In this document: positions 1-44,214 of the stretch, one piece after another | Layout: each line of letters begins with the position of its first letter | Numbering within the stretch: the first letter of the stretch is position 1 | Source: Ananas comosus | Taxonomy: Eukaryota > Streptophyta > Magnoliopsida > Poales > Bromeliaceae | NCBI RefSeq assembly: GCF_001540865.1 | Contig: NW_017893422.1 | Location: 1 to 64,000 of the forward strand | Direction of reading: 5' to 3' | DNA: 64,000 bases | Notes under the pieces: model-generated | What the model saw: only the letters and a program-made list of their open reading frames with translations | Databases searched by the model: none | What the model was told of the DNA's origin: nothing | Position numbers and translations under genes: made by a program

Positions 1-747
1 CTACAAAAACCTCATTCAAAACAAGAGTCTAGAGGACGGAGAAATGGGCAACAACCTCCTAGAAGCTCCAATCTAGCTCAAGGGTGAAGTATCCTCATTG
101 CATAGCTCCGAGCCAGACTTCTAGCACCAAGGAAGATATGAGGGTGATGAAGGTGCTCCAGTCACTAGTGGCTCCAAACTTCTTTTACTTCCTTTTCCTT
201 CTTTTTCTCTCTTCTTCTCTTCTCTAACAAAGGTATGGAGGGATTGTGAGGAGAGAAATGAGAAAGAGGAGAGGTTGGAAGGGTATTTAGGCATCCAAAG
301 TAACAAAATCCAGGAGGTCCCTCAAATCCAGAAAATACGTTAAGCCCGGACTGGCAGTTTTCGACCAGATGGGACCGGTGCTCTCCTAGCAGGTGACCGC
401 GTTCTCGCCCTGGCGAACGCCGAAAAAAACCAGGAAGTTCGGGAACGTCTCTCCCTGCGCATGGACCGGTCTTGCACTGCGAAGACGCTCGCGTTCGGAA
501 CTTAGGTTTCGTGCAAGGCGACTGGTAATGCTAGGCTGCGTCAACATGTACTCATGGGGGGAACCGGTCTTCCTTCCAGGGCGTCCCCGAGAAGTAAAAA
601 CTCTCAGGACTTAGTCCAAAGTTCCAGATTTTGAATTTTCGAAAGCGGATCGGGAAAATTTTACAACCCTCTCGACCAAGGTGTGGAAAAGGCTCGAAAT
701 ATATTAAACACATCGAAAATCGCAATTTGCAAAGGCAGGTGTGTTAA
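1..747 (-). repeat. Gypsy LTR fragment, minus orientation (5' half of the LTR)
   Basis: Read on the minus strand, this holds the usual first half of the LTRs in this window: a start near 747 resembling the family's TGT...ACTGGACC beginning, a degenerate ACCGGT array (about 370-590), then a CT-rich leader (about 170-255, GA-rich on the plus strand). It contains no coding region; short open frames come from low-complexity sequence. It runs off the window edge. The junction near 747 shows no clean LTR terminus, so the boundary is approximate. Confidence 0.7.
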
Positions 748-1437
748 TATGAATATATACGATGTCCAATGGGTAATCACTATGTCTCTTGTTGTATTTT
801 CATTTCATAGTTTACTAGTTTCAAGTTCCCCTTTATGACACTTTTGTTCAACGAGTCGAAGCATGATAATTATGTTCCCGAATGCATAATATGAGTCATT
901 TTAAACATAGAAGACGAGTTTTCCACTCACTAATGCGATTACTTTTCACATGCATGCAGCATATCCATAAGGCTCGACTATATATAGTGAAATTTTCATC
1001 ATACATAATGCATGCATTTTAAGTGTTCTAAAATTCACATAATTCATATTTAGCATGGATTTGCATTCAAAAATACTTTACGACAAGTATAGAAAACACG
1101 GGGGCTATTTCGCCCCGTTTTCACGAAGCGAAACCCATCGAAAATCGAAACTCTTCGTTTCGCCGAATGGAGGTGTCCACTAGTCTCCTAGCACCCTAAA
1201 GATGTAGGAACAAGAGTTACACAATCGAAACGAACATCGAGAAGCTCAATCTTAAACCATCTAAGTATAGAGGGCATAACTCACCTATAGTGATGAAATC
1301 CCTTCTCAAGCTTCCAAAGAGAGCAAGAACCCTTCCAACCTAACCTAGAGGAAGGCTCTAAACCCATTAATTAGGTCTCCAAGCCCTCAAATCAAAAATC
1401 CCCAAAATAAACCCTAAAATCCAAATCTAGGGTTTCA
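748..1437 (-). repeat. Gypsy LTR fragment, minus orientation, left half of an interrupted LTR
   Basis: Mid-LTR sequence in reverse complement, including the stretch around 1000-1140 also seen at 40516-40640. It is cut at 1437 by the solo LTR 1438-4905 and resumes at 4911. The join across the insertion reads as ordinary LTR once one copy of tttca is removed. It has no gene. Confidence 0.75.
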
Positions 1438-1590
1438 TGTAGCACACTGGACCTTTGCAAATTGCGAGGTTCGAGTGTTCGATTTGTATTCTGAACTTTT
1501 TCACACTTGGTGGAGGGCTGTCGATGGTATACCGGCCTAAAAGTTCGATCTCGAGAGTTTTCGCTGAGTCCTGAGAGTTTTTACTCTCGG

Positions 1591-1815
1591 GGACCGGTCC
1601 CTGATAGGAGAGACTGGTCCCCCAGTGAACAGTGCTGCGTAGCCGGCGAGGCAACCGGTCCCTGGCAGTCGAGACCGGTCCCCGAGCGCGTCTGCGCGGG
1701 GAGAGACCGGTCCCGCGCAGGGAGAGACCGGTTCCCGAACGTTGATTTTTCGGGGGTAGGCTGAGAGACCGGTCCCAGGTCGGGGAGACCGATCCCAGGT
1801 CGGGGAGACCGGTCC
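1591..1815 (+). repeat. ACCGGT palindrome array in LTR U3
   Basis: There are about ten copies of GGACCGGTCCC or GAGACCGGTCCC-like units. Each is centred on the perfect palindrome ACCGGT, usually GACCGGTC, spaced about 20-40 bp apart and mostly in alternating GGACC/GAGACC context. The array follows the LTR start by about 150 bp. Overlapping open frames on both strands here are by-products of the repeat and are not genes. Confidence 0.9.
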
Positions 1816-1869
1816 CTCTGGGCAAAAACTGCCCAAACCGGGCTGATGTAAATTTGAGTCTTTGACAGA

Positions 1870-3224
1870 TACCGGGACTCTGGGTGGGCATCCGACAGAC
1901 CGGCCACGGCTCGGATTACCGGGGCACCATCAGTAGTAGGGGTGGGATCCTTACTCGGACAGGGTGCCGCTAGGTGAAGCCGCGGGTTAGGGCGTGCCGC
2001 TTATACTTATCGCTACCGATAGAGGCCTCACGGCCGAACATCCCTCGCTGGGAGTGTTCGTACACGCTTACTCGTGTTACCGTTCATCAGTATACAGGAC
2101 AGTGTTCATGGTTCAGGAGTACAAATTTTGTACCTTACACAGTTCATAGTGTTGCCGGATAGGGATACAGTATACAGAGATTGTACCTTACATCGCCTAT
2201 TCATCACCGGATAGTTATACAGAAATACAACGTCAAAGTATCAAATGATCAAAGTTCACGGGGAACTACTGTGAGAACAAGAGATACGGTCTCGTACCGT
2301 TGATACAAGGTTTCGTGTATAAGGTTCAGTATTAAGAGTATTCACTACATAAAAGGTGAACGTTTATTTGTGAAAAGGGTATATGTACGTAAGATGAGTA
2401 TATCGAGATGATATATCCCTTTAAAAATATTATGTGTTCCGTACGTAAAATTCACGAGATTTTAAGTATATTTAAGGGAAATCGTATCTTTACTTAAATT
2501 TTTATAAAATGTTGTTTATCTTTCTCGTATCCCAGGTAAAGCGGGGTAAAGATGCTTCGGTTTGGGTGGCAGCAGTTGCTTTCGAAAGCAAACGGTGCTG
2601 CTTCCGCAGGTGGTGTGAGGATCATGGGATTTCCATACTTTTGTTCACAGTAGATCAGCTTTGCTTACTGCGATTCAAGTTAGTAATTGGTTGAGTTCGA
2701 TCCCAACCCTTTTTGAGTGGAGTTCACTTTTTGGGAGAGAATTAGAAGTTTACCTTCCATCCCTAGAAGGTTAGATTGGATATATTTCCAAGGTTTGGGT
2801 AGTTTTTCCAAAGTTTCGGGGGTTTAGTTTTTCGGGGTTTAGATTGGGATCTTAGGGTTAGATCCCAAAGTAGATCATTTTGGATTTTTTTGTACATAGT
2901 TCACCCCTAATGTACGATGGTTGGAGTTCTCCTCGAAGTTAGGTTCGAGTTTTGGTTCATCCCAACTTCAAACTAGGAGGTGTTTCGAGGTTGGCGTTCG
3001 AGCTTCGGTGGTTCCACTCTTTTACCCCTTCTTCTACTACGAGGTTTCGGAGGTTCGTTCGAGGAAGAGGAGAAGAAGAAGAAGAAGAAGAAGAAGAAGA
3101 GGGAGAGAAGAAGAGAGAGATCTTATCCACCCTTCCCTTCTTTACTCCTCTCTTCTCCCACTTTACCGGTTTATCCGGTAACCGGTTTATCCGGTAATTT
3201 TCGTTGTTTTAGGTGAATCCAGGA
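1870..3224. other. String-reversed (not complemented) LTR block
   Basis: Read right to left without complementing, this block is ordinary plus-strand gypsy LTR. From 3224 backwards it gives the short pre-leader tract, the CT/GA-rich leader, the A/T-rich middle and the conserved segment near 2000-2100. For example, 2041-2060 reversed equals 38284-38303 exactly. Read as written or as reverse complement it matches only the other backward block. Reversing it in place makes the LTR continuous with 1438-1869. It ends at the N run. The lysine/arginine-rich open frames near 2921-3216 come from a GAA-like tract inside this block. Confidence 0.9.
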
Positions 3225-3244
3225 NNNNNNNNNNNNNNNNNNNN
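3225..3244. other. Assembly gap (20 N)
   Basis: A run of 20 N separates the string-reversed LTR block from a minus-strand LTR fragment. The sequence on the two sides is not continuous in any LTR copy of this window, so the gap hides an unknown amount of sequence. Confidence 0.95.
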
Positions 3245-4400
3245 ATATATAACATATGCATTTTAAGCATTCTAAAAATCATAATAAATACATTTAGTAT
3301 GAACATGCATGCTTTTTCAATTTACGGAACATATATAACCATATATGAGAATTTCTCATATATAGGCTAGGTCAAACCCACCGAACCGTCGCGTAGGGTC
3401 TCGATTCGCCGAACAAAATTGTCCCCGAGTCTCAAAATACCCTAAAAGGATTGAGCGAAAAGATACAAGGGCATTACGATCAACTATAAGATCAAACTTT
3501 AACAAATTTAGCAAAAGGGCTAAAACTCAACCAACGAGTGGAAAATCTCTCTCAAGCTCCAAAAGAGAGCTAAATCCCTTCCAATCCAAGCCCAAGGAAG
3601 GTTCTAAACCAACTAATTTAGGTCCAAAAGCCCTAGATCAAAAATGCCCAAATATGAGCCCTAAAACCTCATCTAGGGTTTCATCTCAAAGAAACCTCCA
3701 AAATTCAAATCTAGAGGAAAAGATCTAGTCACTTACCTCTAGGAAGCTTCAAACCAAGCTCAAAGTCCTCAAACTTCAAGGATCAACCCTCAACCAAGCA
3801 TAAACCCAAGCTCCAATGGTGGGAAAAGCCTCCAACACCCAAAAGAAGCAAAAAGAGAGGCTTTAATCTCTCTAAATCCAAATAAAACCAAAGGAATCAA
3901 AGGGTAGAGTGTGGAGGGCTCCCTTACCTCTTCTCTTGCTGGTCCCAAGCTCAGGAGAAGTCCCAAGGGCGTGGGGACACATATAGAGAGCCACAAATGC
4001 AAATACACCCCTGCAGTTCAAACTGCACAAAATCAGCCTCCTTGTACCGGTACACGGGCTCTTATACCGGTACAAGGTCCACGAAATCCAAACCCGAGGC
4101 TCGGGTCGCTGGGCTCTGCGGCTCTGTACCGGTACAAGCTCCGATGGCTGTACCGGTACAACCATCAACCTTGTACCGGTACAAGCACAACCTTGTATCG
4201 GTACAAGCCTGCCAGAACTCAATCCGAGAGTAGCCAAATCCCCTTTTTTTTTGGATTTTGGTGCAAGGCTTTGTACCACAAATCTCGGGACACGTGCCAT
4301 TGGTCGGAACACAGTCAACGACCCACCAGAAAGTCTGGAAAGGCTCAGAACACGGCCAATCACTCGAACCTCGCAATTTGCAAAGGTCCAGTGTGTTACA
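3245..4400 (-). mobile_element. Gypsy LTR, minus orientation, truncated by the gap
   Basis: The reverse complement matches the first half of the LTR at 29970-32558, including the segment around 30900-31060. Its LTR start is at 4400 (minus TGTAACACACTGG). The plus-strand host LTR resumes immediately with acatc, the expected position of a target duplication, but the left copy is lost in the gap. It carries a GTACCGGTAC array. It has no coding region. Confidence 0.82.
4042..4207 (-). repeat. GTACCGGTAC palindrome array
   Basis: Seven copies of TGTACCGGTACA-like units, some degenerate, are spaced 15-40 bp apart between the LTR start and the CT-rich leader. The core GTACCGGTAC is a perfect 10-bp palindrome. 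The position equals that of the ACCGGT arrays in related LTRs. Confidence 0.9.
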
Positions 4401-4460
4401 ACATCTTTTGTAGCTTTGGGCTTCGTGGTGCATTCACTGAAGTCAGTAATTGCCCACTGG

Positions 4461-4480: not shown

Positions 4481-4910
4481 TCACGTCCTGTTTTATGGTT
4501 TACTTTTCAGAGCCTTCGGCACCGGCGGAGGCACGGGATTGCGGCAAGGGGATCGCTTAGCTAGCTAGCGAGGAGCGGTACTTTGCCTAGGTGGTTTACT
4601 CTTTCTTTTTGTAGTAGAGAGAGAGTGAGAGGTTTTTGTATCCATGTATAGAGACCACCTATGTATCTACCTATAGCACTTGTATCTGGGATTTCCTTGT
4701 ATCACTTTATGTTTTATTTAGTGGGTTTACAGTTTTATCCTTATCCCTTGTTGTAGCATTTAGACATTTATTATGCTCTGATACTCCTAGATTTCTGTTA
4801 TTATTGCTTTTATTATTGTTGTTTTTAGACGCCTTATATGTTTTAGACGTATGGCGGGTCTGGGCACGTGCTGGGCAGGCTTCCGCTGGGTCCCGGGGCG
4901 TGACATTTCA

Positions 4911-7588: not shown

Positions 7589-9236
7589 TGTCACGCCCCG
7601 GATTACACAATTCCCAGGCATATCGACAAATCCGCCGTATACAAAGAATTTTCCTTGTATACGAAGCGTATCGGTAACTGAAAATATACAATACTACAAC
7701 CAGTAGTATAGAGATGTAAAGAAACCAAACAGGTAGAATAAAACAAGTCTCACATATATACAAAAAAACGCTATACAAAGGTACTCGCTCCAGCGAGTTA
7801 TAACAACTGTATGTACATGAACTCAACAAAATAAACCGAAACTACCTGCAGTGGTGGATCCTCTATCTCAGCAACTTGTCGGGTAGGGCTCTAACTCGCG
7901 ACGCCCTTGCCTCGATCAACCTCGGAAGGCGCAGCAACTGAAACCGGTGGCTCTGCAAAACAGTGGTAACAACTGGGTGTGAGAACTACTGTAAAAACAA
8001 GTAGTCCTCAGTGGGTACCGCCCTCAACATCATCGGCCTACCCACTAAGACTACAGTCAGAAATAAACTAGTAGTTAAAGCTGGAAAGAAATCTACAGCT
8101 ACCTGCCACTACACTATCCAACTGTAGTAACTGTCAAATCTGACCCAATCTCAATAGGGACTGTGAACACACCCGTCCCGGGGACTGTGAACGCACCCGT
8201 CCCGCCTGTCTAAGCCACGCTACCTCCACGCAAAACAGTCCGTGGATAGAAAAACTAGTCAGTGACATCAACGCGAAAGCACAAAGCCAAACTCCGGAGC
8301 GGCAACTCGTGGGCGTGACCCAACCGCCTGATCATAAAGTAAACTATGTCGAAAAAATATAAAATTTTATTTCTAGAAACTTTAAATACCCTAGATCAGT
8401 TTTAATGGTGTGGATCGTTGATTTGAACGCCCTAAGATAGAAAACCAACACTATAGTACCGGAGCTCGGTACTATAGATAGTATAGTAGCCTAGATCTAT
8501 ATATATACACACAAATATCCCAAATTTTGAACTGGGGTGCACTTCAAGGTACACTTGAGAAATCCCACGTACGCACCAAGAAGTTGCACTCCTGCAACGG
8601 ATAACAAACATAGGAGTGTCTCTATCGATCCCTATATATGAATGCGATTCCACACCGATATAGTTTTTGCTTTTCTTTCTTTTCTTTTCCTTTTTATTCC
8701 TTTTTCGGGGATAAATAATAGTTGTAATTTTGCACACAACACAGCACAATATAACGTCCCACCATGCATTTACGATGTCGTTCAACAAACCTTTCCAAGA
8801 TACAAAACGGGATATATGTAGGAATTAAAGCAGATAGAAATCATATCTGGAAATCAAACCTAAATTAAAATTTGGTTAATTAAGAAGAAGCAGCTAGATA
8901 AAAACAGATAAGATTTAAGCATGGAAACGTATGCCATTGATTAATTAATTAGCAAATAGTAATATGATGATACATATGATATATTAGGCGGCCGCCTAGC
9001 GCAACTTAGCAGAGAGGATCTCAAAGAAGTCGGGGTACTGAACGATGTCCTCCAGCAGTCCCTGCGGAACCATGGGGAAGTTATCCGGCCCGTCTGCCGA
9101 GGTATCGACGTCGAACGTCTCGACCTCCGATTTGAGAGAGACCAGACCGCGGCGATCGCCATGTTCGATCGTCATCATCTCATCGGCATGAAACTTTCCG
9201 GCGGCGTCGATNTATATATATATATAAGATACTACA
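7589..9236 (-). mobile_element. LTR-like insertion, minus orientation, with a foreign segment and N
   Basis: It starts TGTCACGCCCCGGATT and ends ACTACA, with ccggt at 7584-7588 and 9237-9241. The first 750 bp resemble the 3' half of a gypsy LTR in reverse complement, including a GAACTACT...AGTAGTCC hairpin near 8000. The segment from about 8340 to 9211 does not resemble any LTR in the window and carries a host-like coding scrap ending at an N (9212). A (TA)n tract follows. The outer ends are sound; the middle may be an assembly patch. Confidence 0.7.
8996..9211 (-). pseudogene. Host-like coding fragment, C-terminal 71 codons, unrecognised
   Basis: On the minus strand, one frame is open from the N at 9212 to a TAG at 8996-8998. 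It encodes a 71-residue acidic tail ending in LLEDIVQYPDFFEILSAKLR. Codons are strongly G/C-ending, unlike the surrounding LTR DNA, as in many monocot nuclear genes. I do not recognise the family. The downstream stretch 8340-8990 is A/T-rich and could be its 3' flank. It has no start codon in reach and borders an N, so it is either a captured exon end or a mis-joined contig piece. Confidence 0.45.
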
Positions 9237-11703
9237 CCGGTCCCAAGTCGAGGAGACCGGTCCCCGAGCCCGAAATCTGCCCAGTTTGAGCAGTTTAATA
9301 AGATAAAAGCTGAGGGGCTTAACTACAATTTTGCAACCCATAGAGTGAAATAGCAGGAGAGATGAGATATTTCTCTCATTCTTACCCTCTCACACTCTCT
9401 CATCTCTTTTTCTCTCTCTAGAAGACAAAGAAAAGAAGAAAGGAAAGGAAAGAAAGAGGAGAAGGAGGAGAAAGAAAGGAAAAGAAAGGCAAGGAAGGTG
9501 GAGAAGAAGCCATTGGAGTGAAGCTATCTCCTCTTCTTCCCCTTTTGAGCAAGCTTAGAGGTAAGCCTTGCCCCTTTTCATGGTAAATCCCAAACTAGGG
9601 TTTGGATTAAGCTTAGAATTGGATTTTATAGAACCTTTTGAGCCTTTGAAGCTTTCTTTTGCTTCTTATAGAGATCAACACCATGGGTGGTGTGTGTGTG
9701 ATGAAGTTTAGAGGTGATCTTCACCCCTCTCATGGTAGAATCCAAACTAGGGTTTGATTGAACTAAGGATGGTTTTAATGGACTTCTTAGAGTAGAATGA
9801 AGCTTATTTTGCTTTCCAATGAGATCAAACCCTAGGTTTGATATGTGCTATTGAGCTAGGGCACCCAAATTGGGGCTTTTGCTTGTGAGGGTTCCAAAGT
9901 GAAATTGACCCTCTAGAAACCTAATTGGGGGTATTTCCGACGCGTTGGTGTGCTCGGAATAACATTACGAAAAGTCTATAAAAAGTTATGGGCAAAATGG
10001 CCTAAGTTGGCTTCGTTTTGCCGCAGGTGAAGAACAAGGAGTCTAAAAATCCCAAGAAAATCGTCAGAGCACCTTTGAGAACCTACGAGGTGGGTGGTGC
10101 TATCCAAACGCGTTGAACTTCCTTCTATGCCTAATGTGTTATTCAATTGAGCATATATTATATATATTGTTGCATGCATTATAGGGTAAATGTGATGAGA
10201 GTAATGTGATGTTGCATATTGTGAGTACAATTTGCCTAATGAGATGCTTGAGAACTCCTATGAATGTTTAACCCTATGTATGCATGAGATAAAATGTGAG
10301 CACCAAAGTGAGGCAAAAGAACAGAGTTACACAATGAGACATAGGTCGAGTGGCATTCGATAATGTAAAGTAAAGTGACACTAGAGTTAGCGTGAGGCAA
10401 AGAATCAATGTGATGTAAAAAGTAATGACAATGACTAAAGTAAATGTAATGTGGGGCATAAAGAATATGCAAAGAGTGAAGAACATGATTGTTAGAGATA
10501 GCCAAAAGTAAAGAAATGTAAAGAACTATGATTGCTAGAGTAGCAACATAAAGTGATGAAAAGAACACTAGAGTTTGTGTAATGACATGATTGAACTCAT
10601 AATCCTTAGAGTTAAGGATTCGATCATACTTACTATGAGTTCCGTGCTCGAGGGCGGTCGCTCCCCCTCGGGCGATGCGCTCCGGAGTTTTTGTATCACG
10701 GGTTGGATTAAACCCGAAGGACGGTCTTACCAGGAGGAAGCTGAGGGCCCGCTATGATGGACTTAATGTGAAGTAAGTTAATATGGCGAAACCCCTGGGT
10801 TAGCCGTGAGATCAAAGAACAAAGAATAAAGAACAAAGAACAAAGAGTAAAGAGAAAGAACAAAGAACTTGCATAATCTGCATGAGTTTTATGTTGAGCA
10901 TACTTCTTGCTTTATTGTTCAGGCATATTAGCATCATATTATAGATTGGTTACTATATTCAGCTTATCCTTTCTATTATGCATGAGTTAGTCCTAGTGGG
11001 AAAGTCGGTGATGTTCGGGCCGAACCCACTGGGAACTTTGTTGTTGTCACGCCCCGAGCTCCGCCTATTTGGTCGGATTCGGGCTCGTCGACAGACCGCC
11101 GAACGGACAGAGCCTCCCCTGTACGTTCTAGGCGTCAACAATCTAAACAATGCAATACAAGAGGTTCCAAACAGGAACTATAGCAAGTATGTAGATTGCA
11201 TATGTATCGAAAACATAAAGTGCAAACTATGCTATTACAAGCATTCATCTCAGAGATTCTTTTACATTTACAATATTTTACATTTACAAAACCACATATG
11301 CTTTTAAGTTAATACGAAACTTATACAAATTACTACAATTTTGTTTCTTTCCATTTGAACTCTGAACTTGACCTCTTCAGGGTGTTGCTATCTCAGTCTC
11401 AGTAGTGGGGCGCTATCTACGAAGCTACGCCCTGTCCTCGCGCCGCCGTGCCGCTCGCGTGTAACCTGTACCCCCAAAACAATACGGGGGTGAAAACTAT
11501 ATAAATATAGTTCCCAGTGGGTACGGCCACCCAAGAGAAGAGCTCGACCCACCAGGTCCAAAGGAGGCAACAGTAGGTTAGTTCAACAATAGATAGATAG
11601 ATATTTAACGATACGATAAATAAAACCATACCTTGCCCCGCTGCTATGCAATATGCATTACCTGTAATTCATGTAAGTAGATTACTTGATTCTACTTTAT
11701 ACC

Positions 11704-12018
11704 TGTCACGCCCCGGGACCCAGCGGAAGCCTGCCCGGCACGAGTCCAGACCCGCCATACGTCTAAAACATATAAGGCGTCTACTAACAACAATAATAAA
11801 AGCAAATAACAAAAGACATCTAGAAGTATCAGAGCATAGTAAGTGTCTAAATGCTACAACAAGGGATAAGGATAAAACAGTGAGTTCACTAAATAAGACA
11901 TAAAGTAAATACAATAGGAAATCCCAAATACAAGTACTAAAGGTAAGTACATAGGTGGTCTCTACTCATGGATACAAATCTTTCACTCTCCCAACTACAA
12001 AAGAAAGAGCAAACCACA
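11704..12018 (-). repeat. 3' end of a gypsy LTR, minus orientation, correctly written part
   Basis: The reverse complement matches the last 315 bp of the LTRs ending at 4905 and 46967, including the GCGTGACA terminus. It stops at 'aaaccac' (12012-12018). The very next LTR bases are found, string-reversed, at the far end of the block, at 16017. So this piece and 12019-16017 belong to one element. Confidence 0.88.
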
Positions 12019-14445
12019 GCACGACTAAACAGGCGATAGTGGACCCGCTCCAAGTTCTTGAATGACAACTGATGATGGAAAGGAGTCTCACATTTCTCTG
12101 TCTACCTTTCCCTAGACTCTTTGAACTCCGTCCCCCTGTCCTGTCACCGTCTCATGCTCGCTCTCAAAAGGGCTAATGACGTGACGCAAGGAAAACATCA
12201 AGCTCTACTACTCCTGTTCCGAGCATAGAAACTCCACCCAAACGCCGGACGCTAAAAGTCTAACCAGGTCCGCAGTTTGGAGAGGTGAATGGCCCTACAT
12301 CACTTGGCCCGGAACTAGCAGCTCTTTCCCCGTCTCTATTACTTCCTTTCCCTACAACACCTAGCTTCGTTTCCTTTCTCCGGTCGTCAGCTCTCGTCAC
12401 CAGTCGTTAGGAAGTCTTCCGGTGGTTTCATAGGCTCCCCGGTCAGTCCAGTCAGCTCCCCAGCTCCAAGAAGTCGTGGGGCACCTCGTGGGCTCGCAGC
12501 AGCTGGCGGCGCAACACAATAGACACCACCCGGAGTGCATGGCGGTGTCACAGGTATCGCACCCCCGTCCACGAAAGAAACGCCGGTCCTCCCGGTGAAA
12601 GCAAGTCTCACGGGCTCTCCAAGAAACGGACGTGGGAGCAGTCGCTGACGTGGACGTAGAAGTCGAGGCTCGGTCCCCTGGGGCTGTCGTGGGATAGTCA
12701 GATCCGCTGGTAGTCCTGTCGCCGTCAGCCTCTCAAGCGTCGTCCCAAGCTCACCCGCCTACATACGGCGGGTCTGGCTCCCGCGGCGTCGTCGTGTCCT
12801 CCAGCATCGTCCATAATAAAACTAAGTACTATAAGCACAAGCACGTAATAAACTATGACCACGAAGCGTAAGAAAATAACTAGCCGTCAAACGGCTCAAC
12901 GTATCGTAAAGAAATCGTGGATGAAACGTAGACCCTGCTCATCAACATGGACTGGTATGGGATCTACAAGCACTCAAAACGGGAGCGACGGGTCAATCCC
13001 ATCCGCTGACCTAGTACGGTCACCTAAATGACCGTGATGTGTTTGATCCACTCAAACTACATCATAACCCATACCTAACCAACTGTGTCATAATACGGTG
13101 GTATCTAACGTGCTTGTCTTGCCACTGGAAAGCCCTTGGCCCAGTCGTCCTCAAACAAATATTTCCCACGGTCTCAAGTAACAAGCGTTACTGGTAATCG
13201 AGAAGCGCTCGTGCTGTCAACTAAGCCTCCCCAACACATCGGATGAACCGATCGTAAAGATACTCACTGCCTTTTTGGCAGTTCTAACTACTATAAGGTC
13301 AACACGCTCTTAAGCCCCTACACAAAGGTCGACTCAACGGCCCGTACGGTGGACTATCCCTTCACCTCAAACACTAACTAGAACAGGGACCCTGTTGAGG
13401 ATAAAGATTTCGTGGGATATCTTACCGTGGGCGACTCAATTTTCTCGACTTCCGTGTTAATGTTCTAGAAAATCTGTTTCCTAAATAAGCTGGCTCACAT
13501 AGCGGAACCCCCCGTGGCCACAATAAACAGTTCTTCTTTCTACCTAGAGAAGCTAACACGCACCTAATAGCTCTTTAGTTGTTTCAGTGTTAGTTCTTGT
13601 TTATAGGCAACGGGTCTTAACTACTGAATAAGCTAGTTGACGTTCCTAGCTTTCATATGAGGTTTTAGCTAAACGTTAGCCCGATAGTAGTCGAGTTCTA
13701 ATTCGGACTTCTACATAGATTCTGACGAAAATCTTGTGCCATACCCGTAATACTTAAATGTCAGTACGGAAAACCTAACTGATTACGCGGTCGTCGGAAA
13801 TACCTAAATTACTTGGCACAGAAATTCGGGATAAACCTATCTAAGCATCATCACAAATAACTGCTATAGAACTAGATAAGAGCTTCACTGTTTCTCGTAC
13901 TTCTGGTAAACTCTCACCACAACGTTCATGAAGCTCTTTTCCTTGACAAACGGTTCAATTTCTTTACGCTTAAAACCGAAGCTCTTCACCGTAAAGACCC
14001 GGTACACTAAAGTCTTTGACCCTATCGACACCTAGGTGTCTTCTAACTTCGCTAATTTCTAACCGGATCCGGCTGGTCACAGTGTCTCTAAGCCTCAAAG
14101 GAACCAAACCGCCCTATGATGGCTTCTAAACATCTCCCTAAACGTTTCTACAGATGAGGAGAGTGAGCTGAGTGTGTATTTCCTCGATTCAAAGACACCT
14201 TGCTTCGGACACTTTCTTCGAAAGTTCTTGACTTCCTTGCTAACTGATGGCGGGGTTAAGACCGTGACGGACAATGACCTCACCTGATACACTAAATGTC
14301 GCTACGCAGCAACTTACCGAATCCCACACAAGATTACGTCTTACCGGTCCACTAACGAATACGTAGTGCGGTTAATTTCCTAATACTTTTCTTGATGGGA
14401 TGTGTACTAGACCTCAATCGTCGCCACCATAAACGGAATTTCGAA
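12019..14445. other. String-complemented gag-protease-RT-RNase H block (invisible to six-frame search)
   Basis: Complementing each base in place and reading left to right gives a Tekay-like polyprotein that starts inside gag. In order: the gag core (TVAEYEREFSRLLHCVPF near 12095-12190), two CCHC zinc knuckles (12520-12625), protease with DTG at 12852-12860, reverse transcriptase with FIDD near 13850-13868, and RNase H (near 14280-14440). I noticed one in-frame stop in the zinc-knuckle region. No true strand of the DNA as written encodes this, so the listed strand is neutral. It fuses to LTR sequence near 14440-14450 at a short shared tract. The cause is inferred to be an assembly error. Confidence 0.93.
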
Positions 14446-16017
14446 ACACCTCCTAGTTTGAAGTTGGGATGAACCAAAACTCGAACCTAACCCCGAAGAG
14501 AACTCCAACCATCGAACATTAGGGGTAAACAATGTACGAAAGGATCCAAAATGATCTACTTTGGGATCTAAAACCCTAAATCCCAAATAAAACCCCCAAA
14601 AACCTAAACTCCCGAAATCTTGGTTTAACTACCCAAATCTTGGAAACAAATCCAATCTAACCTTCCTGAGATTGAGGGTAAACCTCTAGCACTCTCGGAA
14701 GAAGCGTTAGCCATTCAAAAGAGGTTGGGATCGAACTCCTCGAATTACTAACTCGATAAACGAGAAGCAAAGCAAACCCACTAGGATAAAAACTACAAAG
14801 ATCCCATGATCCCTCGAACACCTATGGAAGCAAGCCGCTTTGCTTCTTCAACTAAAACCACCCAAACTGAAGTACCTTTACCCCGTTTTACCGGGGATAC
14901 AGAAGATTTGAAAACATTTTATAAAAACTTACGTTTAAGTACGATTTATACTGAGTACCCTTAAAATCTTGTGAATTATACGTACGGAGTATATAGCATT
15001 TTAAACATGAGGTATATCATCTCGATATACACATCTAACGTACGTAACACCTATCATGAACCAAAATGTTCAACTCTTGTATAGAGGTACAATCTCAACT
15101 CACTGAAATTCGCAGTACTTGTGTAATTACAGTACGAACCTTGAGTAACTTGGTTTCACAGTAGTTCCCCGTGAACTTTGATCATTTGATAATTTGACGT
15201 TGGATCCCTGTACAACTATCCGGTGATATATAGACGATGTAAGGTACAATCTCTGTACTACTATATCTCTATCCGGTAACTCTACGAACTGTATAAGGTA
15301 CAAAAATCTGTACTCCTGAACCATGAACTCTGTCTAGTAACGAACGAACGGTAAACACGAGTAAGCGTGTACGAACACTCCCAGCGAGGGATGTTCGGCC
15401 GTGAGGCCTCTATCGGTAGCACTGTGTACGAGCGGCACGCCCTAACCCGCGGCTTCACCTAACGGCACCCCCTCCGAGTAAGGATCTCACCCCTACAACT
15501 GATGGTGCCCCGGTAATCCGTGCCGCGTCCGGTCTGTCGGAAGCCCACCCAGAATATACTAACCCTGAATCACTGTCTTGCATGATACACTTGAAATTTT
15601 GATAATTTCATCTGAACCTGATCTTATCATTTGTTACCGTAGAAATGATAAAGACGTAACTCCTGTAGCCTAACCAACGTAAAGATACGACTACGTACAG
15701 TATGTGTAGGTACATGTAAGTACTATAGCACGAAGTAATGAACACGTTTAATATGATTCATCTTTAAGATACAATATCACTCAATGTAAAATGAATGGAC
15801 AGCGAAATGATGTAACAATCAGTGACTGGAGAAAAACATCGAAACCCGGAACACCACGTAAGTGACTTCAGTCATTAACGGGTGACCTTTGATAAAAATT
15901 ATCAAGAGTGCGGGGACAAAATACCAAATGAAAAGTCTCGGAAGCCGTGGCCGCCTCCGTGCCCTAGCGCCGTTCCCCTAGCGAATCGATCGATCGCTCC
16001 TCGCCAAGAAACGGATC
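14446..16017. other. String-complemented gypsy LTR (leader to near 3' end)
   Basis: This continues the block above. Complemented in place it reads as LTR from the post-leader region to 'tgcctag' near the LTR 3' end. For example, 15861-15880 complemented equals 4434-4453 exactly. The stretch 14446-15545 is the true reverse complement of the other backward block (1870-2990), as expected if both carry the same error. Reversing 12019-16017 as a string would put this LTR directly after 12018 in the correct minus orientation. Confidence 0.92.
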
Positions 16018-16129
16018 NATTCACTTCCTTCATGGCATACCGGGAGAGGAGAACCGTTGATCCCGTTGAATCACTACCGGGAGAGGAGAACCGTCAATCT
16101 CGTAGTTAAGATTCTATTTCTGCCATCAT
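16018..16129. other. Single N followed by an unassigned segment with a short direct repeat
   Basis: The N at 16018 ends the backward block. The next 110 bp hold two copies of an 18-bp unit, taccgggagaggagaacc, about 40 bp apart, and match no other LTR here in any of the four readings I tried. LTR sequence of the 42169-45857 family resumes near 16130. Confidence 0.5.
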
Positions 16130-18488
16130 ACCAATCCTAGGGATTCCGGAATCCATTTTCACAACTTAAGGGTTTACTCTTTTACCCTATGTCGACGACC
16201 TTTCTAGGTCTATTCTATTCACTTTCTAGTGGTCCTATTGCCACTATGATTCACAACTTAGTTTACTTTTACTAAGTGGTTCTTTACATCATAACCTAGG
16301 TTCACTTACACTAGGTTTTATATACTTTCTCCTAGATCTCAACTCTAGGTTTACATACCCGACCTAGGTCCAATGACACTAGGTTAATGTCCGACCTATG
16401 TTCAATAACACTAGGCTTATTTCATGTCCAACCTATGTTTAATAGCACTAGGTTCATGCCACTCGAGCTATTCAATGTCCAACCTAGGTTTAATAACTCT
16501 AGGTTCAGCCACTCGATCTATTCAATGTCTTAGTTCTCCACGCCTAGGTTTATAATTTGCACATTTTCATTTACCTCGTTACCGTTTAGATTTCTACTCA
16601 ATTGGAGTTGTCGATTTATACCCAATACTTAGGGATTTCACGTGAGGTTTACAGATTATATACTTATTTCCATCGAGGTTTCTAATCATTATCGACGTTC
16701 ATATAGCTTGAACTATAATATATTCATTTTCACATATGTTTGGGCACATGCCTCAAATATTCGCTTTTAAGTGTCGACAATAGCATCTAGGTTCACATTT
16801 CATATTCAATTTACATGCCCTTGGCTTTTACAGGTTTAACATGATATTTACAAGTTCAACATTTATATATCATGAACATATGAATTTAGAATAACTATGG
16901 CTTTCCCGTTCATATATATATTCATTCTCATGTCTCTCGCGTTCATTTTCATATATGTTTAGCCCTTTTTGCAACTAGCACCCACAAGTCACGCATTCAT
17001 ATGTCTCTAGCATGTTTGTCGCACCTAAATAATCATACAAGATTATCACTATAGTCATGTACATATTCTATCGATAAGCAACTTATATAACTCATGCTTT
17101 CAGTTCAATAATCATATTCATGAACTATCGCTACACATATATGCGTCAATTGAATTCATACTTTACTTTGGCATGGAAGTGACCTAATCACTTCGGTAAG
17201 CACAACCCACCTTTCTTTGATGCCGGAATGGGAGAAATTCGCTTCGAGTACTTTTCCAACAGCCGCGACCCGCGCTCGTGACTATTGTAGTCGAAAATGC
17301 TCTTTTGGCGATATCTTCGCGTAGGCTCGTCGGATTGCCAAACCGACTTCGCCAGCAAGTTTCTTTTACCCCCAATTAGGTTTGTACGCGGTCAATTTCA
17401 CTTTAGGGCTTCTATTCTGCAAAAGTGCATTATCGGGGTCAATTTTTATAGAAGCTCGTTTCAATGCAATTTCACAATTCACTAGAGTAATTCAACTCTT
17501 TTTAGCCCAAGAATCTCAAAAATAATTAATGAAATCTGCCCAAAGACATCGATTCCATTTTTCTCTCTATTTCATTTCCTTTCTTTCATTTTTTCTTCTC
17601 TTTCTTTCTTTCTTTCTTTCCTGCAGATTTCTTCCTTTTTCCACTACCACTTCGCACCGAACACTTCAAAACCTTTTGAAAACACACCCTTGGCTTTTCC
17701 GAAACTTCACAATTGATTCGGAGATTCCACAATTTATCCTTACGCCTTACTTTAATTCTTTTAATCAAAGTTAGCGTCGGAAATCTGAAAATTCTTTTTA
17801 CATTTCGTTTCGCGCCCAATTTGCACCGAAACACTTATTTATCTCCGAAATTCATTCCAACGCATCACGAATCACTCGAGAATGATGTCCAACTAGCTCA
17901 ATCCTCACTTTGATCCTCTAGGTCAAAGTTGACATCGCAACTCCAAGTTTCCATATGTTACAGTTGTAGTTCTCACCCCACTATTCCACAGAGCCGGGAC
18001 CGAGCAAGCCGGCGAGCGACCGCGGTAAAGGTATCGTACCATAGTCAGAGGCCACCAGAGTTGGGTTATTACATTTTGTTAATAGTTTACCCTTTTATCA
18101 TCTTTTGTATTTGATGATTTAAGATGTTGATGTATAAAGCAAAGAAAGAAAAGAATGTAATGTTTATTTTGAGCCAATGTGATGTAAAAAGAAACAATGC
18201 AAGCAATGTAAAGAATCATGAATATACAACTTGGATGAAATGGATGCATGTATGTGATCAAAAGTTGAATCATAATACCTGTGTAGATGTTTAGTTCCCT
18301 TTCTTTCACTCATGGCTATTGCTTACCCTCGTGTAAGCCGTTTGTGTATATTTCCGCTAGTGCACTTCTTTTTGAGAATGTACATGTGATGAAACTTGGG
18401 CGGACAGGGGAAACTCTGTCCGTTCGGCGTCTGTTGGACGTGCTCGGGCCGGCCCAAATTGGTATCGGTCCCGGGGCGTGACAAGTCG

Positions 18489-21187: not shown

Positions 21188-21513
21188 TGTCACGCCCCGG
21201 GACCCAGCGGAAGCCCGCCCGGCACGTGCCCAGACCCGCCATACGTCTAGAACGTATAAGGCGTCTAAAAACAACAATAATAATAGCAATAATAAAAGAC
21301 ATCTAGGAGTATCAGAGCATAATAAGTGTCTAAATGCTACCACAAGGGATAAGGATAAAACTGTAAATCCACTAAATAAACATAAGGTAAGTACAATAGA
21401 AAATCCTAGATACAAGTGCTAAAAGTAGGTACATAGGTGGTCTCTATACATGGGTACCAAAACCTCTCACTCTCTCAACTACAAAAGAAAGAGTAAACCA
21501 CCTAGGCGAAGAA

Positions 21514-21613
21514 CCGCTCCTCGCTAGCTAGCTAAGCGATCCCCTTGCCGCGATCCCGTGCCTCCGCTCCTCGCTAGCTAGCTAAGCGATCCCCTTGCCG
21601 CGATCCCGTGCCT
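21514..21613 (-). repeat. 50-bp tandem duplication in the LTR
   Basis: Two identical 50-bp units (21514-21563 and 21564-21613) contain CTAGCTAGCTAAGCG. Other copies of this LTR have one unit. It is a local slippage or replication duplication. Confidence 0.92.
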
Positions 21614-22754
21614 CCGCCGGTGTCGAAGGCTCTGAAAAGTAAACCATAAAACAGGGGCGTGAGAACTATTAAAAATAGTTCCCAGTGGGCAATTACTGAC
21701 TTCAGTGAACTGCGCCACAAGGCCCAAAAGCTACAAGAAGAGGTCAGTGACTAACGATGTAACAATAAAAAGGTAAGTAAACGTAACTTACTATAACATA
21801 GAGTCTCCACTTAGCATGATTTGCATAAGTAATAAAGCAACTATATCATGAATGTACATGGATGTGTTGACATGCATAAGCGTAGGAATGCAACCAATCC
21901 AATGTTCTCAATGCAAAATAGTAAAGATGTCATTGTTTACTATTCTAATCCAATTCCACTTTAATAGTTTTAAAGTTCACATAGCACGTTCTATCACCAA
22001 GTCCCAATCATATAAGACCCACCCGAAGGCTGTCTGGCCTGCGCCGTGCCTAATGGCCCCGTGGTAGTCAACATCCCCACTCTAGGAATGAGCCTCCCCC
22101 ACAGCGATCCACTTCGGCGCCCAATCCCGCACGGCGAGCATGTGTCGCGATGGCTATCTCCGGAGTGCCGGCTTGTAGGGAGCGACCCTCACAAACATGT
22201 GCGAATGAGCACAAATGGCAAGCAAGCAATGATCCGTCTCAAGAACCAAGTCCTCATGTCTAACAACATGGAATATATCAAGTATCTCAATGGCCTATCT
22301 CTATGTCATCATGTCTCTAACATGGAATGTAGCAGATATATAGTGGCCTATCAACATGTCTCTACGTTGCAGTTTAATAGTTTACTAGTTTCAAGTGCCC
22401 CTTAATGACACTTTTGTTCAACGAGTTCCAAGCATAGCATTAATATGTTCATGATGCATAATTCACTCAACTCTAGCATGGAGACATGTTCTCAACTTGC
22501 GAAACCAAGCACTATCCACAATGCATGCAATCTACACATATAGCTCTACTATATGGAGTACAAATTTTATGATATATAAAGTGTAAGGAAGTGAATTCTC
22601 GAAATACGAGGATTGTACTTCATCCAGGATCGACTAATTGTCGAAAGTATACCCTTTGTGGGAGTTGAGAATGTCTAAAGCACAAAAGTGCGTTGGGGTT
22701 GAGTCCGCGAGAGCAAATGAGGCAAACTGCATCATTGGGCTGATGTTGCTCTCG

Positions 22755-27120: not shown

Positions 27121-29969
27121 GGGTCGACATCAATACCTACACGGAGTGCGCCTCGTGTCCGATACAAATAGGCAATTGGGTTATGCCTATTCGGACGCTA
27201 GAACTCCAGAAACTTGAGGCGTACGACGTCATATTGGGCATGGACTGGCTCTCGAAATATCACGCCACGATTGACTGCAAGAGCAGGGTGATCACATTCC
27301 GTGAGCCAGGACAGGAAGAGTTTACCTATCGAGCTTGCCAGAGCTCGTGCTTCATCGCGGCGGTGTCGGCGACAAGAGCGAGAAAGTTGGTGAGCAACGG
27401 TTGAGCGGCGTTCTTGGCGACCGTAGTAGAAGTGGATCGAGTAGCTCCAACATTAGAGGAGTTATTGGTGGTGCGGGAGTTCCCGGATGTGTTTCCTGCG
27501 GAGTTGCCGGGGATACCACCGGATCGGGAGATCGAGTTCGTCATAGACTTGGTTCCCGGCACCGCACCGATCTCGAAGGCTCCGTACCGCATGGCGCCGG
27601 CGGAATTAAAGGAGTTAAGGAGTCAACTGCAAGACCTCCTCGACAAGCAATTTATCCGGCCAAGTGTATCACCGTGGGGAGCCCCAGTGTTATTTGTACG
27701 GAAGAAGGACGGATCGTTCCGACTCTGCGTGGACTATCGAGAATTGAACAGAGTCACGATCAAGAATAAGTACCCACTACCCCGAATCGATGACCTGTTC
27801 GATCAGTTGCAAGGGTCGTGTGTGTACTCGAAGATAGACTTACAATCTGGCTACCACCAATTGAAGATCAAGCCGGAGGATGTGCAAAAGACTGCGTTTC
27901 GCACGCGGTATGGACATTATGAATTCACGGTCATGCCATTTGGGCTCACAAATGCCCCAGCGGCATTTATGGATTTGATGAACCGTGTCTTCAGGAAGTT
28001 CTTGGATCGATTTGTCGTGGTCTTCATAGACGACATATTGGTCTATTCTCGTAGCGACGAGGAACATGCCGAGCATTTGAGAATAGTGCTTCAAGTCCTC
28101 CGGGAGGAGAAGCTATATGCTAAGTTGAAGAAGTGTGACTTTTGGCTCCGAGAAGTCGCATTTCTAGGGTATGTAATTTCCGCGGGTGGAGTTTCAGTAG
28201 ACCCAAGGAAAGTTGAGGCAATCAAGGATTGGCCGCGCCCGACGAATGTCACGGAGGTTCGAAGCTTCGTGGGCTTAGCGGGCTACTATAGGCGGTTTGT
28301 GGAAGGCTTTTCAAAGATAGTGATTCCACTTACTCGTCTGACCCAGAAAGGCACCAAGTTTGTTTGGAGCGAAGAGTGCGACCGGAGTTTCCAAGAATTG
28401 AAGCAAAGATTGACATCAACCCCGGTGCTCGCTCTACCGGTGCAGGGCGAAGACTTTGTGGTCTACAGCGATGCCTCCTATCTTGGATTGGGGTGTGTGT
28501 TGATGCAACACGGGAAGGTGATTGCCTACGCATCCCGTCAGCTGAAGAGCTATGAAAAGAACTACCCCATCCACGATTTGGAGCTAGCGGCGGTGATTTT
28601 CGCCTTGAAGCTGTGGAGGCACTATTTATATGGTGCCCACTGTGAGATCTATACCGACCACAAGAGCTTAAAGTACTTGTTTACCCAGAAGGAGCTCAAT
28701 ATGCGTCAGCGGCGGTGGTTGGAGCTGTTAAAGGATTATGATGTTGATATTCTCTACCACCCCGGGAAGGCAAATGTGGTCGCGGACGCGCTGAGTAGGA
28801 AGTCAGCGAAGAACCTCGCATTTGACGTTACCCAGCAAGCACCCTTATGGCTGGATATGGAACGACTAGACCTCGAAGTGGTTGCTCCCGAGGTCCCGAC
28901 ACAGTTAATGGCACTCGTTATCCAACCGACCTTGTTGGAGAGGATTAAAGATCTGCAACCCGCAGACCCAGAGCTCCAAAAGGTGCGGCGAAACATCGAG
29001 GAAGGGCGTGGCGGCGATTTCAGTATAAACGCCGATGGTGCGCTTCAGTTTAGAAACCGATGGTGTGTGCCGAAAGATGGAGAGCTTCGCGAATTGATTC
29101 TATAAGAAGCACACAGATCTCCGTATGCTGATCACTCGGGCGGCACCAAAATGTATCGAGGATTGAAAATGCATTACTGGTGGCCGGGAATGAAGGGTGA
29201 AATTGGGCGCTTTGTGGCGAAGTGCTTAACGTGCCAGCAAGTAAAAGCAGAGCGTCGGTTCCCAGCGGAAAAACTTCAAAGCCTACCAATCCCCGTTTGG
29301 AAATGGGAGGATATCTCGATGGATTTCGTGGTCGGCTTGCCTCGCTCAACGGGCGGCCACGATGCCATTTGGGTAATTGTGGACCGATTGACGAAGTCGG
29401 CTCATTTCTTGCCGATCCACACCACGTGGTCGGGTGACAAGTTAGCGCAGGTATACCTTGACGAGATAGTGAGACTGCATGGGGTGCCGAAATCGATCGT
29501 ATCGGATCGTGACCCCCGGTTCACTTCACACTTTTGGAAGAGCCTGCAGGGAGCCCTTGGCACACGGCTCGACTTTAGCACCGCATTTCATCCTCAGACC
29601 GATGGGCAAACGGAGAGAACCATTCAAACTCTGGAGGATATGTTGCGAGCGTGTGTCATCGACTATAAGGGAAGTTGGTGTGACCACCTACCCATGGCCG
29701 AGTTCGCCTACAACAACAGCTACCATGCTAGTGTGGAGATGGCACCGTTCGAGGCTCTTTATGGGCGGAGGTGTCAGTCTCCTATACACTGGAGCGATGT
29801 TGGCGAGCGAGCGGAGTTCGGCCCGGATGTGTTGCGGGAAGCGGAGGAGAAAGTCTGTCTTGCTCGCAAGAGATTGCTCACGGCGCAGTCCAAACAGCAA
29901 AGTTATGCAGATAGGCGCCGTCGAGATATAGAATTCGCGGTGGGTGACCATGTATTCCTGAAGGTTTCA
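27102..29969 (+). pseudogene. Element A pol: protease end, RT, RNase H, integrase (interrupted)
   Basis: One frame from the second half of protease (DVILGMDWL) through RT ([31 protein letters not shown]), RNase H ([27 protein letters not shown]) and integrase. Integrase has the HHCC region near 29106-29250 (KCLTCQQ) and the catalytic core with FVVGLPRSTGGHDAIW, SDRDPRFTSHFW and FHPQTDGQTERT. It ends at the GDHVFLKVS motif where element B inserts (29970). In-frame stops lie at 27402-27404 (TGA in place of a Cys codon) and 29103-29105 (TAA in place of a Gln codon). Catalytic residues look intact otherwise. The chromodomain end is missing. Confidence 0.95.
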
Positions 29970-32558
29970 TGTAACACACTGGACCTTTGCAAATTGCGAG
30001 GTTCGAGTGTTTGGATGTATTTCGAGCTTTTCCACACTTGGTGGAGGGTTGTAGAGTGTTTTCCGACCTAAAAAGTTCGAAAACCTGAGTCCTGAGAGTT
30101 TTTACTCTTGGGGACCGGTCCCTGATATGAGAGACCGATCCCCCCAGTGAACAGTGTGCGCAGCCGGCAAGGCAACCGGTCCCGCGCAGGGAGAGACCGG
30201 TTCCCGAACGCTGGTTTTTCGGGTTCGCAGCGAGAGACCGGTCCCTCTGGGCGAAAACTGCCCAGACCGGGCTGTGGTAATATTGGATTTTTGGAGGGCC
30301 TAGATGGATTTTGTTACAAGAGAAGGCTTATATGGCCACTTCTCCTTCTCCCCTTCCTTACTTCACCATTTCTCTTGCTTCTAGAGAGAGAGAGAGAGGG
30401 AGAGAGTGGGAGAGGAAGGAGAAGAAGGGCTTGTAGAGGACTTGGAGCTTCACCTCCACCCTATCTTCTCCCTTTTGGTGGATTGGAGCTTACGTTTGGA
30501 GCTTGGTGGTGGACCAAACTTCAACCTTGGGCATTTTGAGCTTGGATTGAAGCTTCCAAAGGGTTAGTGACATGTTTCCTCCTTTAGATTCTTATTTTGG
30601 TGATTTTTGGGAGATGAAACCCTAGTTTTGGGACTTAGGGTTTATTTTGGGCTTTTTGAACCTAGGGCTTTTAAGGCTTGATTGGTTGGTTTAGAACCTT
30701 CCTTGGGCTTGGATTGGAAGGGTTCTAGCTCTCTTTTGGAGCTTTGGAAGAGATTTCTTCTCTTGAGGTGAGTTTTGGCCATTTTTGCTTCTAGGTTAAT
30801 GTTTGATCTTATGGATGGTCGTAATGCCCTCGTATCTCTTCGCTGATCACTTTTAGGGTATTTTAAGACTCGGGGACAACTTTGTTCGGCGAAGCGAGAC
30901 CCTACGCGATGGTTCGGTGGGTTTGACCTAGCCTACATACGAGAAATTCTCATATATAGTTATATATGTTCCGTAAATTGAAAAAGCATGCATGTTCACA
31001 CTAAATGTATTTATTATGATTTTTAGAATGCTTAAAATGCATATGTTATATATAGTGAAATTTTGGACCTCTATGTAGTAGAGAGTCGCTTGGGAGATCC
31101 TTGGTTGCATTTAGCATTCTATACGAGATTTGGTTTTATGTTTCTATAGTGTAAATGAGTTCGAATTCATGCATTTAAACTTAAGTTTACTCGACATGAA
31201 AGATGATAAAATTGCCATATAAAGGTATCGAGCTAGAATGTATGTGAACTAGCGAGCTAATGTCATCAAGCGGCATTAAGCTCGGGGCATGTGTGAACCT
31301 AGTGGATAGGGCCATTGAGGGACATGGGATGCACGTTGGATATCAAATTGCCTAAGTGTCATCAAGGGGCACTAGGCGTAGCAAAAGCTGAAAATTCACA
31401 TTATGCCTTAAACTAGATCTTCGGGATGCTAGTGACTATACCATGTTAGAGACATGAGGATTGGATACTTGAGACTTGGACTTTGCTTGCTTGCCATTTG
31501 TGCTCATTCGCACATACTTGTGAGGGTCGCTCCCTACAAGCCGGCACTCCGGAGTTAGCCTACGCGACTTATGTACGCTCGTGCCGTATTGAGAAGCCTA
31601 CGGGGTCGAGTGGGACAGACACATTCCATGTGTAGGAATGTCGGGCTACCACAGGCACTTAGGCGGCACAAGCTGGACTACCTTGGGTGGGTCCCTAATT
31701 GGAAATGGAAATCGACACGGTTTGAGAATAAACAATCACTACTAGATAGGTTTAGTAGTTGGATTATATTTACATGCATATAACATAGGGTTGAGACTTG
31801 TAGCATACCTGACAGTTACCTATTTCATCACAGTATACTTTGTTGCCACGTAGAGCTTATACATCATGTTTGAATAAAGGGTTGTAACAGTAAACTACTG
31901 CCATTGGTTACTTTTCCTTATGATAGAATAGATGTACAACATTTTGACATCGTGCTTATGAGGGATATAGTGGTATAGCATTTTACTTATGTACTCTCTT
32001 TCAGCAGTTTATTTACATGCTCTTTTTTATTGCTTATTGCTATTAGCATTACTTACCCTTATTTTTGGGGCCTAGTGGAGCAGGAGCTGAGGTCAGTAAT
32101 TGCCCACTGGGAACTATAAATTATAGTTCTCACGCCCTCTTTTCTCGATGTTTTTCAGAGCCTTCCGCGCAGGGTGAGGCCGGGGATCGCGGGAAGGGAG
32201 TTGCTTCGAGCTAGCTTCCTTCGAGGACGATTTGCTAGGTGGTCTACCTCTCGTTGTATTTTATTTTGGAGAGGTTGAGGGTTTTACCAGTGTACTAGAG
32301 ACCACCATTTTTGTACTAGAGACAGTTATTGTACTACTTATGATTTCTTTTATTGTCTAGCCTTACTCTTTTCACTTTGGTGTAGATGTTAGAACTTTAC
32401 TCGCTCTGATATCATTAGTTGCTAGTTATTTCACTTCTTCTACTTGTTCTATTACTTGCTTTTACTTCCGCTTTTATTGTAGACGCGTTATATGTGTAGA
32501 CATATGGCGGGTCTGGGCACGCTACCGGGAGGGCCTCCGCCGGTCCCGGGGCGTGACA
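29970..32558 (+). repeat. Element B 5' LTR
   Basis: 2589 bp, TGTAACACACTGG... to ...GGGGCGTGACA. It has an ACCGGT array (30113-30246), a TATA-like ttatatgg (30329-30336), a CT-rich leader then GA-rich tract (30337-30430), long A/T-rich middle sequence and the hairpin at 32111-32129. It has no coding content. Confidence 0.93.
30113..30246 (+). repeat. ACCGGT palindrome array, element B LTR
   Basis: A shorter array of about five units than in element A, ending about 85 bp before the TATA-like motif. Confidence 0.88.
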
Positions 32559-37000: not shown

Positions 37001-37475
37001 ATATGCTTCGAGCCTGCGTGATCGACTTCCAGGGAGGATGGTCGCAGCATCTACCGATGGCCGAGTTTGCTTATAACAACAGTTATCAAGCAAGCATCAA
37101 GATGGCACCATTCGAGGCACTCTATGGACGGAAGTGTAGGTCGCCGCTTCATTGGAGTGAAGTTGGCGAGAGATTGGCCTTAGGCCCAGATGTGCTCCAG
37201 GAAGCAGAGGACAAGGTTCGTATTGCTCGGGAGCGATTGTTGACAGCCCAGAGTAGGCAGAGGAGTTATGCTGATCGGCGTCGACGAGACTTGGAGTTTC
37301 ATATTGGAGACCATGTGTTCTTAAAAGTCTCGCCGACCAAAGGAATTAGAAGATATGGAATCCGCGGTAAGTTGAGCCCCTGATACATTGGACCGTTTGA
37401 GGTTTTGGAACGGATAGGCCCGGTAGTGTATCGACTCGCTCTACCGCCAAACCTATCGGGTGTACACAATGTGTT
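34045..37475 (+). pseudogene. Element B pol: zinc knuckles to integrase, one late stop
   Basis: The longest open frame of the window: 1112 codons from 34045 to a TGA at 37381-37383. Order: CCHC knuckles ([14 protein letters not shown]), protease ([20 protein letters not shown]), RT ([32 protein letters not shown]), RNase H ([27 protein letters not shown]), integrase zinc region and core ([40 protein letters not shown]), and the GPY-type C-terminal module. The TGA replaces the codon that is CGA or AGG in relatives (RxIGP motif). After it the frame continues to the N gap, where the chromodomain would lie. Catalytic residues appear intact. Confidence 0.93.
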
Positions 37476-38055
37476 NNNNNNNNNNNNNNNNNNNNNNNNN
37501 NNNNNNNNNNNNNNNNNNNNNNNNNNNNNNNNNNNNNNNNNNNNNNNNNNNNNNNNNNNNNNNNNNNNNNNNNNNNNNNNNNNNNNNNNNNNNNNNNNNN
37601 NNNNNNNNNNNNNNNNNNNNNNNNNNNNNNNNNNNNNNNNNNNNNNNNNNNNNNNNNNNNNNNNNNNNNNNNNNNNNNNNNNNNNNNNNNNNNNNNNNNN
37701 NNNNNNNNNNNNNNNNNNNNNNNNNNNNNNNNNNNNNNNNNNNNNNNNNNNNNNNNNNNNNNNNNNNNNNNNNNNNNNNNNNNNNNNNNNNNNNNNNNNN
37801 NNNNNNNNNNNNNNNNNNNNNNNNNNNNNNNNNNNNNNNNNNNNNNNNNNNNNNNNNNNNNNNNNNNNNNNNNNNNNNNNNNNNNNNNNNNNNNNNNNNN
37901 NNNNNNNNNNNNNNNNNNNNNNNNNNNNNNNNNNNNNNNNNNNNNNNNNNNNNNNNNNNNNNNNNNNNNNNNNNNNNNNNNNNNNNNNNNNNNNNNNNNN
38001 NNNNNNNNNNNNNNNNNNNNNNNNNNNNNNNNNNNNNNNNNNNNNNNNNNNNNNN
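37476..38055. other. Assembly gap (580 N)
   Basis: This hides the end of B's pol, its PPT and about the first 1.3 kb of its 3' LTR. From the 5' LTR and element C, the missing sequence should be near 2 kb, so the N length is not a real size estimate. Open frames made of X here are meaningless. Confidence 0.95.
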
Positions 38056-43983: not shown

Positions 43984-44214
43984 CGTTCCGGTATCAAGTA
44001 AAGGTGGGTTGTGCTTTACCGAAGCGATTAGGTCGCTTCCATGCCAAAGTAATTTATGGTTTTTATTGATGCATATATTTATAGTGGTAGGTTATGAANC
44101 GTTCCGGTATCAAGTAAAGGTGGGTTGTGCTTTACCGAAGCGATTAGGTCGCTTCCATGCCAAAGTAATTTATGGTTTTTATTGATGCATATATTTATAG
44201 TGGTAGGTTATGAA
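43984..44214 (+). other. Exact 115-bp duplication around a single N
   Basis: 43984-44098 and 44100-44214 appear identical and are separated by one N at 44099. It looks like two overlapping contig ends placed side by side without merging, so the LTR is really about 3.57 kb. Confidence 0.92.

Follow-up and report, generated by a model that had tools for sequence, protein, structure and literature searches.

Reversed, non-complemented retrotransposon sequence beside assembly gaps in a pineapple contig

Two segments written in reversed letter order

The window, the whole stretch of Ananas comosus DNA analysed here (64,000 nucleotides), contains a 4,000-base segment at 12018-16017 for which, among the readings tested, a Ty3/gypsy retrotransposon appears only when the letters are reversed without complementing. 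A second stretch of the same kind, absent from the original prediction, occupies 1865-3224. The features of the two loci are given below, where the in-place complement denotes the string obtained by complementing each base in its own position.

11704-12017, minus strand: LTR part in normal writing, belonging to the left contig and running on into the reversed string at 16017
12018-16017, no strand assigned: segment 1, 4,000 bases in reversed order without complementing, sense order 16017 down to 12018
12019-12555, in-place complement: gag core (Retrotrans_gag PF03732, E 1.1e-14)
12559-14478, in-place complement: 640 stop-free codons, pieces of which carry zf-CCHC, RVP_2, RVT_1 and RT_RNaseH_2
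14441-14453, located from reversed-string matches: end of the pol homology and start of sequence like that beyond the integrase of relatives
14990-16017, reversed string: 3' and LTR part of the element, 91-98% identical to 21502-22577
16018, no strand assigned: single N that immediately follows segment 1 and is read as the mark of a gap left unclosed
1865-3224, no strand assigned: segment 2, 1,360 bases, reversed and non-complemented, with the left edge placed from one homologue to within 1-2 bases
3225-3244, no strand assigned: 20 N in a row, immediately following segment 2

The whole window was cut into 500-base pieces, each of which was reversed without complementing and compared with the window. 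Pieces from segment 1 found close partners: reversed 15001-15500 matched 22068-22566 at 94.6% (E 0.0), reversed 15501-16000 matched 21569-22067 at 92.0% (E 0.0) and reversed 13501-14000 matched 35032-35531 at 80.6% (E 3.8e-133), with identities of 72-81% to gypsy elements at 34-36 kb and 48-50 kb. The reversed string also found partners in two LTR copies, starting at 4590 and 46655, within the stretches originally named for this comparison, and the in-place complement of 15861-15880 is identical to 4434-4453, exactly as first noted. At E<=1e-6 there were 93 reversed matches, and in every one of them a single partner fell in segment 1 or 2 (15-base tolerance): the subject alone in 47 cases, the query alone in 46, and both or neither in none. 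The reversed reading is therefore confined to segments 1 and 2.

As a control, both segments were masked out of the target and their 11 pieces were compared with the rest of the window at the same threshold. None of the 11 matched as written, whereas all 11 matched when reversed (48 hits). Together with the lack of protein hits to the four 1-kb blocks of segment 1 as written, this agrees with the original prediction that ordinary searches miss the segment. Compared with each other as written, the two segments give an opposite-strand alignment of 1,128 bases with 80.5% identity (E 0.0), the result expected of strings flipped alike. The 194 14-mers that segment 1 as written shares, as reverse complement, with the rest of the window were considered as counter-evidence and rejected, since their source is segment 2, itself reversed.

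The left border of segment 1 was located by scoring junctions at 12016, 12017 and 12018 against homologous LTR copies. The LTR part to the left (11703/11704-12017) matches 21188-21501, 46656-46968 and 4591-4905, and in these copies the reversed string begins at 21502, 46655 and 4590, such that the homologues cross the junction at 21501/21502, 46656/46655 and 4591/4590. The best junction was 12017|12018 in all three copies, with scores of 197.5, 197.5 and 186.5 for the reversed string versus 97.0, 97.0 and 85.5 for the string as written. All three copies thus show the reversed string continuing the minus-strand LTR that breaks off at the left edge, as originally proposed; the proposed start of the segment, 12019, shifts to 12018, which gives a length of 4,000 bases followed by the N at 16018. 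For segment 2 the best junction score (one homologue) falls at 1864|1865, and the segment ends at 3224 before the 20 N.

The right-hand ends behave differently from the left. Between the distal ends of the reversed strings and their right flanks the only similarity found was a 22-base match at segment 2, and 16019-16136 matched none of the LTR stretches with which it was compared. One LTR spans the left junction of segment 1; the remainder of the element, with any target-site duplication or second LTR, would fall in the gap.

Composition follows the same pattern. The dinucleotide values for CG and GC are 1.06 and 0.72 in segment 1 and 1.00 and 0.51 in segment 2, versus 0.86 and 0.98 elsewhere in the window; segment 1 also shows a lower sum of TG and CA and a higher sum of GT and AC. 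In single 1-kb blocks the CG/GC comparison is noisier, and the blocks at 7001 and 19001 also have CG above GC. A fifth-order Markov model was applied to 630 windows of 400 bases. It favoured the reversed reading in every window lying in segment 1 (36 of 36) or segment 2 (10 of 10), and in 23 of the 568 that touch neither; a further 16 straddle a segment edge. Because these windows overlap and the training set contains homologues, the preference counts as support and is no separate proof.

A similar leaning is shown by the Markov scan for the stretch 7601-8001. We do not count it as a third reversed segment: it has no reversed match, and it follows an LTR-end motif, TGTCACGCCCC, in forward order at 7589. 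This motif occurs 11 times in the window in normal order and never in its reversed form.

The element encoded in segment 1

The in-place complement of segment 1 contains five stop-free stretches of at least 100 codons (179, 156, 154, 640 and 101), compared with two in the string as written (111 and 123) and two in the reverse (129 and 102). Four of its pieces carry, in gypsy order, gag (PF03732), protease (PF08284), reverse transcriptase (PF00078) and RNase H (PF17919), and Pfam thereby confirms the domain order read from the letters in the original prediction. Within the 640-codon stretch the E values are 1.3e-5 for zf-CCHC, 2.7e-30 for RVP_2, 2.4e-38 for RVT_1 and 3.7e-26 for RT_RNaseH_2. 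The two frames of segment 1 as written contained no Pfam families.

Individual motifs were close to where they had been placed. The protease DTG is present, one base further on than the 12852-12860 first given (12853-12861), and FIDD, expected at about 13850-13868, lies at 13855-13866. Where CCHC knuckles in the plural had been described, a single canonical one is found, at 12571. The LTR said to follow the coding part corresponds to the reversed 14990-16017 listed above.

A translated comparison, in which 14 protein pieces from normally written open reading frames of the window were set against 1-kb blocks, found no hit in the four blocks of segment 1 as written, whereas after in-place complementing these blocks yielded 5, 6, 5 and 0 hits. 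As a control, 53 further 1-kb blocks were complemented in place, a set leaving out 1-4000, 11001-12000, 16001-17000 and 63001-64000, and none of them gave a hit. The gypsy protein matches expected of the in-place complement were accordingly found, both as Pfam domains and as hits to these pieces. Segment 2 matched none of the 14 pieces, either as written or as its in-place complement.

The order gag, CCHC, aspartic protease, reverse transcriptase, RNase H and then LTR is that of a plant Ty3/gypsy LTR retrotransposon. The element differs from this model in one respect overlooked in the original prediction: no integrase was detected in segment 1, whereas one is present in three relatives elsewhere in the window. 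Two integrase pieces from the relatives gave no hit in the in-place complement; in the relatives themselves Integrase_H2C2 is above its cut-off in three of three, and rve is below its own. Reversed 14029-14453 matches 28197-28619 and reversed 14441-14498 matches 30500-30556, such that RNase H joins sequence of post-integrase type at 14441-14453, where the two homologies overlap by about 13 bases. Because no integrase was detected and the pol homology stops near 14453 and resumes past the integrase of the relatives, the element would be a defective copy or a mis-join, and we claim nothing more for it.

The underlying element is an ordinary LTR retrotransposon of Ananas, of the Ty3/gypsy type. 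Of the 85 gag relatives found, 83 are named as Ananas comosus, mostly var. bracteatus. When the reverse transcriptase piece (260 residues, in-place complement) was compared with public proteins, the top full-length identity was 83% and the best named plant was Drosera capensis at 79%, with a few hits bearing bacterial names (all among the best 120 of 8,000 scored).

Short tandem arrays of TGTACCGGTACA-like units occur elsewhere in the window, at 4149-4208, 52371-52430, 56911-56987 and 59604-59877.

Origin of the reversed strings

Two of the six N runs in the window, at 16018 and 3225-3244, have a reversed segment directly on their left side. No reversed match was seen to the left of the single Ns at 9212 and 40287, and the reversed matches near other N runs are the normally written partners of segments 1 and 2. 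The runs at 44099 and 37476-38055 were judged from the window-wide scans, which are blind to a reversed stretch of ordinary composition that has no relative in the window. With two of six N runs carrying a reversed segment, either not every gap was affected or the other gaps were never extended.

Several of these N runs have features of their own. The lone N at 44099 lies between identical contig ends of 115 bases (43984-44214), an unmerged overlap that resembles a tandem duplication. The lone N at 9212 truncates a minus-strand frame of 71 codons (8999-9211) that has no Pfam match and gives the impression of a host gene end. An unbroken gypsy pol frame of 1,112 codons (34045-37383), with integrase domains in its last part (36145-37380), comes to an end near the gap of 580 N at 37476-38055.

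The reversed order is almost certainly an artefact in which sequence from a gap-extension step was written back in the wrong letter order, and it requires no DNA process. A gap-filling fault had been put forward as the best reading of segment 1, and it is strengthened by the second segment in the same window, by the N runs at both right ends and by the left junctions across which the reversed strings continue. We infer a software step with one-sided extension and a strand slip. The extension would be one-sided because the reversed strings continue the left contig, no connection to the right contig was detected and N remain there. Such a step would start at the edge of the left contig and read on to the right, 4,000 bases into one gap and about 1,360 into the other. 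Most probably the program stored this extension as its opposite strand, then complemented it and omitted the reversal; the unfilled remainder of each gap would have been kept as N (1 and 20). A software limit is suggested by the first length being a round 4,000 bases.

The extension need not derive from this locus. Identity to the three LTR copies is 90% in the left flank and 96-98% at the start of the reversed string; relative to the copy at 4.5 kb there are 29 mismatches in 310 bases in the left flank versus 6 in 184 in the reversed start (Fisher p 0.011). The extension may thus come from another repeat copy, although the copies themselves are also slightly closer to one another on that side (96-97%, versus 94-96% on the left). 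Consequently, even the re-reversed sequence may be wrong for the locus.

The same slip could alternatively have happened during contig or scaffold building, with a whole piece stored reversed and then joined. Lone N joins do exist in the window without a detected reversed piece, and the exact 115-base overlap at 44099 indicates that some joins came from the placing of contigs. However, both reversed strings continue the left contig without break or overlap, and a length of 4,000 bases fits an extension limit better than a contig, which makes this course of events unlikely, if still the most serious competitor. It is very improbable that the reversal was introduced later, in database or window preparation rather than by the assembler: exactly 4,000 bases is a plausible size for a hand-made edit, but the second segment has 1,360 bases and both segments end exactly at N runs, a coincidence that an arbitrary edit would hardly produce twice.

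Neither biology nor chance offers a credible account. That the plant genuinely carries DNA in parallel-reversed order has nothing in its favour beyond the string itself; both segments adjoin assembly gaps, 640 codons are open in a reading absent from either strand as written, and we know of no route of replication, recombination or repair that gives opposite letter order without complementing. We regard it as vanishingly improbable. Mirrored similarity arising by chance or from low complexity may explain the weak match of reversed 3041-3085 to 62958-63007 (50 bases). As an explanation of the segments it has a negligible prospect, given E values down to 0.0 over 500-base pieces, protein hits in none of the 53 control blocks and no reversed match lying wholly outside the two segments. 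The gap-extension artefact accordingly remains our reading.

The artefact is related to, and distinct from, faults and structures of known kinds. It resembles the inversion and relocation misassemblies of gap-filled repeats in being a local wrong orientation beside a gap, within a repeat and made by software. An ordinary inversion, however, is a reverse complement and is visible to BLAST and six-frame searches, whereas the segments described here are reversed only and searches with them as written come back empty. Mirror repeats and parallel-stranded DNA also involve letters read in the opposite direction; they occur as short motifs or structures in otherwise normal DNA, in contrast to the kilobases of reversed coding sequence found here.

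Consequences for the assembly

No account of a reversed, non-complemented sequence fault was found among the matches listed from open-licence PubMed Central texts (titles and starts of abstracts). A term search of PMC10815858 gave no occurrence of reverse, complement, orientation or inverted, and PMC8774480 names the pineapple assemblies MD2 v1 and v2, F153 v3 and v7, and CB5. A 22-base 16S motif, searched in reversed form, gave no match in a collection of genome contigs that is prokaryotic and hence uninformative on plant assemblies; the forward motif, used as a positive control, was found in at least 115 stretches.

In summary, we find no biological feature here beyond an ordinary retrotransposon. 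The affected bases amount to 5,360 of the 64,000 in the window (8%). The original prediction that any gene call inside the reversed string is void holds for 12018-16017, and it extends to gene and repeat calls in 1865-3224.

Looking forward, BLAST-type and six-frame searches miss reversed sequence, as seen for both segments, and repeat maskers and read mappers should miss it too. Reversed stretches would silently depress repeat and gene counts and could seed databases with spurious gene calls. Their extent can be gauged by a cheap scan that combines the CG/GC swap, BLAST with reversed queries and position beside N runs. A systematic, undescribed gap-extension fault, which would have left very many kilobase-long reversed strings across this assembly and others from the same program, is a real prospect to which we give slightly less than even weight; if it exists, repeat and gene sequence would have been lost to homology searches.
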